Assembly (NCBI RefSeq): GCF_018614615.1
Contig: NZ_JAGGOK010000010.1
Span: 124,001-188,000, forward strand
Source of the DNA: Streptomyces sp. ISL-100
GTDB taxonomy: Bacteria; Actinomycetota; Actinomycetes; Streptomycetales; Streptomycetaceae
Reading direction: 5' to 3'
DNA length: 64,000 nucleotides
Shown: piece after piece, positions 27,625-48,764 of the stretch
How positions within the stretch are numbered: the first letter of the stretch is position 1
Layout: every line of letters begins with the position of its first letter
Notes under the pieces: generated by a model
What the model saw: only the letters and a program-made list of their open reading frames with translations
What the model was told of the DNA's origin: nothing
The model's database searches: none
Position numbers and translations under genes: made by a program

Positions 27625-30165
<2,541 letters not shown>

Positions 30166-30240
30166 CGACCGCAAGTACACCGTGGTCTCGCCAGTACACC
30201 GTGGTCTGTGGTCCAGTGCCCCGAGGTGGTCTAGTGCCCC
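30166..30240. repeat. Two small direct duplications at the 3' end of gdx
   Basis: GTACACCGTGGTCT occurs twice (about 30175-30210), and AGTGCCCCGAGGT occurs twice (about 30214-30246). The second lies across the exporter's last codons and stop, so the gene's end has been partly copied just downstream of itself. Confidence 0.6.
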
Positions 30241-30551
30241 GAGGTCGCCTTCAGCCCGACCACCGCCACCAGCAGCAGGCACACAAAGAAAATCCGGGCG
30301 GCGGTCGCCGGCTCACCGAGCACCACCATGCCGAGGACCGCCGCACCGGCCGCGCCGATGCCGACCCACACGCCGTACGCCGTACCGATCGGCAGCGTCT
30401 TGGCGGCGTGCGACAGCAGCATCATGCTCGCGACGATCCCCGCGCCCGTGAACACACTGGGCCAGAGCCTCGTAAACCCGTCGGTGTACTTCATCCCGAT
30501 CGACCAGCCCACTTCGAGCAGACCGGCGACAACAAGCAGAACCCAAGCCAT
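30231..30551 (-). CDS. gdx: SMR-family guanidinium exporter (Gdx/SugE type)
   Basis: 106 residues and four transmembrane helices. It has the Gdx subtype pattern: G10, the essential E13, W16 (AGLLEVGWSIGMKYT) and FTRLWPS. Gdx proteins export guanidinium in exchange for protons as antiparallel dimers, while Qac-type members differ at these positions. The guanidine-III-like aptamer in its leader fits this function well. The ribosome site GGAGG lies at about 30562-30566 and is part of a proposed switching stem. Confidence 0.88.
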   Translation of the reverse strand: MAWVLLVVAGLLEVGWSIGMKYTDGFTRLWPSVFTGAGIVASMMLLSHAAKTLPIGTAYGVWVGIGAAGAAVLGMVVLGEPATAARIFFVCLLLVAVVGLKATSGH

Positions 30552-30596
30552 GACGGGGGCACCTCCGAAGACGAAACGCGGAAACAGCGATACATC

Positions 30597-30650
30597 GGGG
30601 TGCGTCGTCTTTGCGTAGAACCCGGTACGGCGCGTCTCGTCGGGGGTGCT
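30597..30650 (-). promoter_or_regulatory. Guanidine-III-like riboswitch
   Basis: Read on the minus strand, the leader of gdx contains CCCG-ACGAG, then GCGCCGT-ACCGGGT and, after a short link, AAGACGACGC. This matches the guanidine-III (mini-ykkC) aptamer layout. P1 is CCCG with CGGG, a compensated change from the CCGG/CCGG I recall for the Thermobifida RNA. P2 is GCGCCGT with ACGACGC, one C-A mismatch. The P1 strand overlaps GCACCCCC (30642-30649), which can pair with GGAGGTGC at the ribosome site (30559-30566). Ligand binding would therefore free translation. The match is from memory; a covariance search has not been run. Confidence 0.72.
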
Positions 30651-30676
30651 TCCAACATAGCAAAGGGCAGCGAAAG

Positions 30677-30702
30677 GGCCCGGTGACCCTGATCACCGGG
30701 CC
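30677..30702 (-). terminator. Terminator of the GroES-like gene
   Basis: A perfect 10-bp stem (GGCCCGGTGA with TCACCGGGCC), 6-nt loop, followed on the minus strand by CTTTCG. It isolates the gdx leader from upstream transcription. Confidence 0.75.
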
Positions 30703-30719
30703 TGACGCAAGCAGCCTGC

Positions 30720-31103
30720 CTACAAATACAAGCCGGTCGAGTCCTCCGAGACCCGCTCGGAAGCCACCGCGTGCAAATCGCGCTCCCGCATCAGTACGTA
30801 CGGGGTGCCGCGCACCTCGACCTCGGCCCGGTCCTCCGGGTCGTACAGCACCCGGTCGCCCGGCACCACGGTCCGTACGTTCTGGCCGACCGCGACCACC
30901 TCGGCCCAGGCCAGCCGCTTGCCGACCGCCGCGGTCGCCGGAATCAGAATGCCGCCGCCCGAGCGGCGCTCGCCCTCGGGGCTGTCCGACCTGACCAGCA
31001 CCCGGTCGTGCAGCATCCGGATGGGCAGCTTGTCGTGCGTGGTGTCGTGCGTGATGTCGTGCCTGGTGTCGTGCCTGGTGCCATGCGTGGTGTTCTCGCT
31101 CAC
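30720..31103 (-). CDS. GroES-like co-chaperonin-fold protein with His/Asp-rich N-terminus
   Basis: 127 residues. After an odd N-terminal segment (THGTRHDTRHDITHDTTHDK) of about 20 residues made of His/Asp/Thr repeats, the rest is a GroES beta-barrel domain: RMLHDRVLVRSD, then GGGILIPATA, VVAVGQNVRTVVPGDRVLYDP and the ending YVLMRERDLHAV. It is not the groES partnered with groEL, as no chaperonin lies nearby. The His-rich head could bind metal; the function is unknown. The first codons sit in short DNA repeats, so the true start could be at KLPIRM. Confidence 0.75.
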   Translation of the reverse strand: MSENTTHGTRHDTRHDITHDTTHDKLPIRMLHDRVLVRSDSPEGERRSGGGILIPATAAVGKRLAWAEVVAVGQNVRTVVPGDRVLYDPEDRAEVEVRGTPYVLMRERDLHAVASERVSEDSTGLYL

Positions 31104-48550: not shown

Positions 48551-48601
48551 AGTGGTGCCTCCTCCGGGGGATTTCCTCGTCCCCTGGTCGGTGGTGAAGA
48601 A

Positions 48602-48725
48602 GGCGGCAGGTCAGTTCCTGGCTTCCAGGCGGAGCTCAAGGCGCTTGATGAGCGTGGCTGAGCGCGGCCTGGTCACAGTGGCGGGACCGTGCCGGATTCA
48701 CACCGGCTTCCTGAGTCCTGCCGCC
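48602..48725 (-). promoter_or_regulatory. Cobalamin riboswitch
   Basis: Read on the minus strand: GGCGGCAGG begins P1 and CCTGCCGCC ends it (48602-48610 with 48717-48725). Inside are AGGAAGCCGGTGTGAATCC, GGCACGGTCCCGCCACTGTG and, near the 3' end, GAAGCCAGGAACTGACCTGC. These are the conserved B12-box and core strings of cobalamin aptamers. It lies about 50 bp before btuF and should repress the transporter when B12 is abundant. Confidence 0.95.
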
Positions 48726-48764
48726 CGGGTCGTGCACAGTCTGTCAGTGCGTCCGGTGTCGTGG

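Follow-up and report, generated by a model that had tools for sequence, protein, structure and literature searches.

A guanidine-III riboswitch ahead of a gdx-type gene in Streptomyces, and a proposed role for its P2 strand in masking the ribosome site

The gdx locus and its guanidine-III aptamer

The window (the whole stretch of DNA analysed here, 64,000 nucleotides from Streptomyces sp. ISL-100) carries on its minus strand a gdx/sugE-type gene for an SMR transporter of 106 aa (30231–30551). The protein matches Pfam SMR (PF00893) at 93.4 bits (cut-off 23.7) and, as the best of 21 families, NCBIfam SugE (NF008512) at 124.3 bits, with a cut-off of 126. Its nearest PDB sequence is 6wk5 (E 1.1e-33), which we take to be Gdx-Clo. 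A cmscan of the whole window gave a single match to RF01763 (Guanidine-III), at 30666–30599 on the minus strand, covering model positions 1–67 of 67 with 45.3 bits (E 3.3e-6) and thus exceeding the gathering score of 36. The match ends 47 nt ahead of the SMR gene and its 5´ part overlaps a promoter element. No Rfam match to guanidine-I, -II or -IV reached the gathering score anywhere in the window; these classes are described as having the same ligand and the same kind of genes (PMC7736828, PMC7266159, PMC12186494), and their folds differ from that of guanidine-III. A preliminary description, made from the letters of the stretch, had named guanidine-III as the class and gdx as the target, and had suggested a covariance-model search; the significant match from that search and the Pfam, NCBIfam and PDB matches of the gene directly behind the aptamer bear it out on both points. 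By comparison with the family, membership of the guanidine-III class is as good as certain, and guanidinium is the ligand that the RNA would be expected to bind.

The layout is given in the numbering of the T. fusca crystal, with all window positions on the minus strand. P1 is formed by CCCG (nt 1–4, 30641–30644) and CGGG (nt 21–24, 30621–30624). The core GACGAG (nt 4–9, 30636–30641) includes the binding-site bases C6 and G7 and is followed by A10 (30635), the third-strand base that goes with A38. The 5´ strand of P2, GCGCCG (nt 12–17, 30628–30633), includes the binding-site base G17, and AAGACG (30606–30611) runs into the 3´ strand of P2, CGACGC (30602–30607). The segment GACGACGC (nt 34–41, 30602–30609, with A38 at 30605) holds this P2 3´ strand and is also the proposed anti-RBS (ribosome-site) strand; the flank ACCCC (30597–30601) is its proposed anti-SD extension beyond P2. 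The Shine-Dalgarno sequence (SD) GGAGG lies at 30562–30566, and the spacer TGCCCCCGTC (30552–30561) ends in a conserved GTC that adjoins the start codon.

The T. fusca guanidine-III (ykkC-III) RNA (PDB 5NWQ, RF01763) shares with the window the H-type pseudoknot, built from P1 and P2, and the core GACGAG / GUACC / AAGACG. The bases C6, G7 and G17, which PMC5696562 describes as the binding-site bases of guanidine-III, are all in place in the window. The 5´ hairpin of the Rfam model does not form properly there, since two pairs of its short stem are non-standard; this hairpin is not needed for the fold, because the crystal construct, as described in PMC5696562, begins at P1.

Elsewhere in the window, a cobalamin riboswitch match lies at 48592–48736 on the minus strand (45.0 bits, cut-off 31.5). 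A PBP1A-family gene (27625–30165, plus strand) converges on gdx, and its protein ends in a long C-terminal tail of low complexity, rich in T, D and G.

Related loci and the distribution of the class

RF01763 is present in 175 of 394 genomes sampled from the class and in 54 of 61 sampled from the genus. Six of the 54 (G395, G401, G413, G420, G429 and G435) have an RF01763 match, yet only distant gdx relatives, while the other 48 have a close gdx relative (E 1.8e-38 or better). In the seven genus genomes with no RF01763 match (G396, G018, G406, G414, G418, G437 and G442), the best gdx match is E 1.5e-24 or weaker. The named genomes with a window-like leader are mostly Streptomyces. For the genus, both the element and its gene are commonplace, a known class of riboswitch where it would normally be met.

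Comparisons were made on 208 fetched loci, the class part of which consists of the best matches listed, with weaker class matches absent. An SMR frame stands behind the aptamer in 186 of them, a start codon was found in 183, and 181 leaders were analysed. One locus (L197) was brought in by means of a fixed string; L093, L136 and L163, with starts more than 300 nt away, were left out, as were L098 and L124. The 181 leaders comprise 63 of the Streptomyces type and 118 others. The former were picked by the string GACGAGACGCGCCGTACCGGG, which fixes A10, C15 and G22 by selection and leaves C3, A38, the flank, the RBS and the promoter free. A second set of 80, out of at least 119 matching stretches from named genomes, may overlap the first in its organisms; an SMR start lies within 130 nt in 68 of these loci (41 Streptomyces, 17 other Actinomycetota and 10 from other phyla).

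Several guanidine-III loci are found ahead of other genes. The genome of the window has a second match (L001, 1501–1568, G000 contig 11; 45.9 bits), directly followed by a gene for an MBL-fold hydrolase (1580–2464; Pfam Lactamase_B, 44.9 bits). The same arrangement is seen in four loci of the genus (L047, L161, L172 and L185), the proteins being 71.9–82.2% identical, and a limited literature search returned no report tying guanidine-III to MBL-fold hydrolase genes. In five further loci of the genus (L176, L191, L192, L195 and L196), ACGACG stands in place of the AAGACG or similar sequence of the other loci, 70–80 nt ahead of OsmC-like genes (assigned by Pfam in L176 only, by eye in the others). 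Three of the five were rescanned and lie above the Rfam cut-off (42.0–45.4 bits), and the exact pattern is present in 11 of 295 genus genomes; these variants may have changed their ligand or be decaying as switches. Finally, in one family (f4: L003, L007, L009, L011, L012, L019, L117 and L119) the aptamer precedes arginase-family genes whose eight proteins are 82–97% identical (Pfam Arginase, 219 bits, for L019 only). This agrees with the report of speB genes behind ykkC-III (PMC2864571).

Compensated change in P1

The window P1 reads CCCG/CGGG in place of CCGG/CCGG, a paired change that leaves all four pairs canonical. The pair 3–22, G–C in T. fusca, is C–G here. Across the 208 loci, of which one (L204) is a misparsed row in the tables for the P1 and P2 pairs and for A10, pair 3–22 is G–C in 144, C–G in 63 and U–A in one. 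The neighbouring pairs vary less: pair 1–24 is C–G in 198, G–C in seven, U–A in two and something else in one, and pair 2–23 is C–G in 205, U–A in two and something else in one. The paired change already remarked on in the preliminary description is therefore one case of a compensated pair and, as judged from the aligned loci, P1 is kept by compensatory changes.

The C15·A38 opposition in P2 and its partner A10

The single C–A mismatch that had been seen in P2 is C15·A38, so that the P2 of the window, unlike that of the crystal, is not fully Watson–Crick. It is common to 62 of the 63 Streptomyces-type relatives. In the T. fusca crystal, G10 is described as the third base on the C15–G38 pair (PMC5696562); the three corresponding positions of the window are A10, C15 and A38. 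C15·A38 occurs in 84 of the 208 loci, all of which have A10. The 85th A10 row is the misparsed L204, and C15 is kept in 84 of the 85. A fully Watson–Crick P2 is thus no defining feature of the class, since 84 of 208 members share an opposition that goes with A10.

The second set (80 of at least 119 stretches) comprises 64 loci with A10 and C15·A38, one with A10 and U15–A38, four with G10 and C15·A38 (Corallococcus 2, Myxococcus 1, Actinomadura 1), two with C10 and C15·A38 (Kribbella) and nine others. All 65 loci with A10 have A38, and 64 of the 70 with C15·A38 have A10; the link is perfect in the 208 loci, but six of the 70 C15·A38 loci of the second set lack A10, and these sets may share organisms, the first being mostly from one genus. 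C15 is kept in 64 of the 65 A10 loci of the second set, although U15 would restore a Watson–Crick pair. Records with the A10/C15·A38 state in these 80 stretches come from Actinomycetota, Myxococcota, Legionella, Planctomycetota and Verrucomicrobiota. A pattern search of 396 genomes of the phylum matched 13, of which 12 have A10 with C15·A38 and one has G10 with U15·G38. The SMR protein tree has three changes of A10, and C15·A38 is in step in all three independent pairs, too few for significance.

Our reading of this comparative link is that a G·G to A·A exchange may have taken place within the base triple, with C15 left opposite A38, where an A+·C pair could form. It is a rather doubtful extension of this reading that a protonated A10·A38·C15 triple couples guanidinium sensing to pH, in an aptamer that, placed at the extreme 5´ end of the mRNA, would both free the ribosome site and shield the transcript.

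Promoter element and probable RNA start

An extended -10 element, TGC-TATGTT, is located at 30654–30662 on the minus strand. The usual discriminator has six bases. Together, the box and such a discriminator place the likely RNA start at or near A30647, three bases before P1, and the aptamer would then form the 5´ end of the mRNA, while the GC of GCACCCCC may be untranscribed. A -35/-10 consensus scan gave no match, which would be no surprise for a promoter of the extended -10 kind. TAnnnT stands 15–20 nt before GACGAG in 59 of the 63 Streptomyces-type leaders (5.3 in shuffles, with a maximum of 11) and in none of the 118 others. TTGCTA at that site shows the same division (56 of 63 and 0 of 118), and TAnnnT recurs in 36 of the 41 Streptomyces loci of the second set. 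Where the Streptomyces type has its -10 box, most other leaders carry a hairpin, an upstream hairpin with an MFE of -6 or lower being present in 102 of the 118 as opposed to 14 of the 63. The conserved box suggests a 5´-terminal placement of the aptamer in the Streptomyces type.

Just upstream of the gdx promoter, the inverted repeat GGGCCCGGTGACCCTGATCACCGGGCC (window 30676–30702), which is also in the consensus of related leaders, is perhaps the terminator of the upstream GroES-like gene (30720–31103), although it was not picked up in the scan for terminators.

Transcription attenuation, in which the ligand would control a terminator in the leader, is the mode that PMC5696562 gives for guanidine-I. 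The scan of 30500–30780 found no terminator-like site and there is no T-run between aptamer and gene, and attenuation was rejected as highly improbable at this locus.

Which strand can mask the ribosome site

The preliminary description had assigned the masking of the ribosome site to the 5´ strand of P1, whose pairing within P1 on binding guanidinium would release it. The complement is present: GCACCCCC (30649–30642) and GGAGGTGC (30566–30559) form seven of eight pairs, with one C·A opposition, and -13.3 kcal/mol is the pairing energy of the P1-side strand with the window gdx RBS. The 3´ strand of P2 with its flank, GACGACGCACCCC, is in turn complementary to GGAGGTGC...GTC-AUG, and the P2-side value is -14.4 kcal/mol. 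Either value is equalled by three of 74 background RBSs, taken by a crude reading-frame rule from other genes in these loci and in the window; the complement alone is therefore only mildly unusual, and the relatives must decide.

Among the 63 Streptomyces-type leaders, GCACC is found in six P1 5´ strands as opposed to 58 P2 3´ strand/flank sites. In the duplex comparison, made after adjustment of eight aptamer ends, the 5´ strand of P1 gives -9.6 kcal/mol with its own RBS; swapped RBSs do as well (-10.0 ± 0.2) and shuffled letters less well (-8.6 ± 0.3), while the P2 3´ strand and flank reach -13.1 kcal/mol with their own RBS and -9.3 ± 0.25 with shuffled letters. Swaps on the P2 side (-13.05 vs -13.1) are uninformative among the 63, because this strand hardly varies there. 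The complement of the P1 strand is also absent from the two nearest relatives by gdx protein (L043 and L050, 98% identical), where the P1 side reads GACACCCG and the P2 side pairs with the RBS at -20.2 and -18.3 kcal/mol. What speaks for the P1 strand outside this group is that native P1–RBS pairing in the 118 other leaders is somewhat better than swaps (-10.15 vs -9.66 ± 0.20); P2-side and RBS segments overlap in short-linker loci, and the P2 values of these leaders are not relied on. As a general anti-RBS strand the P1 strand was rejected on conservation and partner swaps, and it keeps some chance for the window sequence itself.

The bases complementary to the P2 side are themselves conserved. 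GTC at -3 to -1 precedes 52 of the 63 riboswitch genes, vs two of the 74 other genes and none of 20 SMR paralogues without a switch. GGTGC in the spacer is present in 49 of 63, vs one of 74 and none of 20 (Fisher test against the 74, p 3e-24 for GTC and 4e-23 for GGTGC, with the kinship of the 63 uncorrected). The 41 Streptomyces loci of the second set have GTC in 39 and GGTGC in 34. The rarity of both motifs in control genes and paralogues argues that neither SMR genes nor these genomes have such a complement as a rule. Along the 63 leaders, the conserved stretch extends beyond P2 through AAGACGACGCACC into ACCC; conservation then falls off, stays low across the linker and rises again at the SD and in the spacer.

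Covariation of a start-proximal helix between U37 and A(-4) was also considered. A is found at -4 in eight of 19 U37 loci, vs six of 99 G37 loci that are not of the Streptomyces type; it was rejected, independent branches agreeing in a mean of 0.8 of three pairs. An anchored-helix swap in the other loci gave 3.40 vs 3.25 ± 0.07, with nothing within the U37 or G37 groups.

The two Legionella loci of our sample also have A10 with C15·A38, and the guanidine-III work of Richards and Belasco in 2021 reportedly concerns Legionella. In the model proposed for that guanidine-III RNA, a member of the same class, the riboswitch acts as an obstacle to RNase, a mode reported in PMC12186494 (citing Richards and Belasco 2021). 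At the gdx locus, a bound 5´-terminal pseudoknot would stabilise the mRNA by blocking RNase E or a similar enzyme, with or without an effect on the RBS. The -10 box that sets the RNA start beside P1 in 59 of 63 Streptomyces-type leaders would suit this model, which leaves unexplained the feature by which the window differs from the Legionella case, namely the complement between its P2 side and the RBS, together with the conserved bases of the spacer. Stabilisation is held to be an unlikely explanation, and the most serious of the alternatives.

Energetics of opening the ribosome site

The RBS-opening, strand-swap, dereplication and second-set calculations avoid the overlap of P2-side and RBS segments. 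In the 63 leaders, opening the region from the SD to the start costs 10.6 kcal/mol with the P2 strand free and 8.9 with it sequestered (41 up by more than 0.5, 18 down), and in the 118 others 8.2 and 5.4 (82 up, 23 down); the values for shuffled strands are 8.9 in the 63 and 6.7 in the 118. In the second set, the costs are 11.0 free vs 9.1 sequestered for the 41 Streptomyces loci (25 up, 7 down), 9.1 vs 7.4 for the 17 other Actinomycetota (9 up, 7 down) and 9.4 vs 5.9 for the 10 loci of other phyla (9 up, 1 down).

Outside the Streptomyces type, swapping P2 strands within families lowered the mean opening cost in 100 of 100 trials (8.16 vs 7.53 ± 0.15). By family, the native value was reached in 1/200 swaps for f26, 0/200 for f36 and 0/200 for f4; f17 alone gave no signal (69/200). 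After mild dereplication (59 loci), 0/300 swaps reached the native value, and the signal was lost on stronger dereplication to 28 loci (112/300), as well as to 22 and 12. Folding the leader with the aptamer constrained had been suggested in the preliminary description, and globally this shows no release of the SD: with P2 forced, the SD becomes more open in 15 and less open in 9 of the 63 Streptomyces-type leaders, and more open in 27 and less open in 69 of the 118 others.

Averaged over the 63 leaders, 9 nt of the P2 strand without flank add 0.10 kcal/mol to the opening cost, the 9-nt P1 strand 1.5 and the 13-nt P2 side with flank 4.1, the 13-nt P2 side adding more than the P1 strand in 49 of 63. 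The step from 0.10 to 4.1 kcal/mol indicates that the flank, which lies outside the P2 uptake, does much of the RBS holding. For the window itself the order is reversed, nine nucleotides of the P1 strand adding 8.7 kcal/mol and the 13-nt P2 side 3.7. In the folded window leader the winner depends on the 5´ end and the coding length included. With the GC of GCACCCCC the P1 strand wins (0.54–0.87); from A or C it loses if the fold takes in 33 nt of the coding sequence (0.00–0.01 vs 0.69) and is ahead with 6 nt (0.46–0.54 vs 0.14–0.17). Transcription probably begins downstream of this GC, which, with the evidence of the relatives, makes release of the ribosome site through P1 formation a quite improbable mechanism.

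Proposed mechanism

The reading that we prefer, at a probability of roughly 0.55 for the mechanism as a whole, places the masking arm on the P2 side; our confidence is lowered because the P1 strand competes well in the window's own sequence. Transcription would start a few bases upstream of P1, leaving the aptamer at the 5´ end of the mRNA. Without guanidinium, the P2 3´ strand and flank, GACGACGCACCCC, would pair with GGAGGTGC...GTC-AUG. Guanidinium would fold the pseudoknot, with P2 and the third strand taking up nt 34–41, so that the RBS would be freed and translation would rise. The switch and its direction are thus proposed on sequence grounds, and a translational ON switch is the expectation published for guanidine-III (PMC5696562, PMC12186494), whose action at the ribosome site is described as less well established in PMC5696562. 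The general idea of an ON switch in the preliminary description agrees with this expectation; its choice of P1 as the masking arm does not fare as well, the particular strand being poorly kept among the relatives.

To the known class these results would add an expression platform that is a stronger candidate than the P1 strand, an explanation of the mismatch and the 5´-terminal placement in the Streptomyces type; parts of the platform and mismatch findings may be in print already. With the A10/A38 link, what looked like a defect in P2 becomes comparative support for the base triple of the crystal. The conserved complement between nt 34–41 with their flank and the bases adjoining the start codon would give this widespread switch a specific and testable platform.
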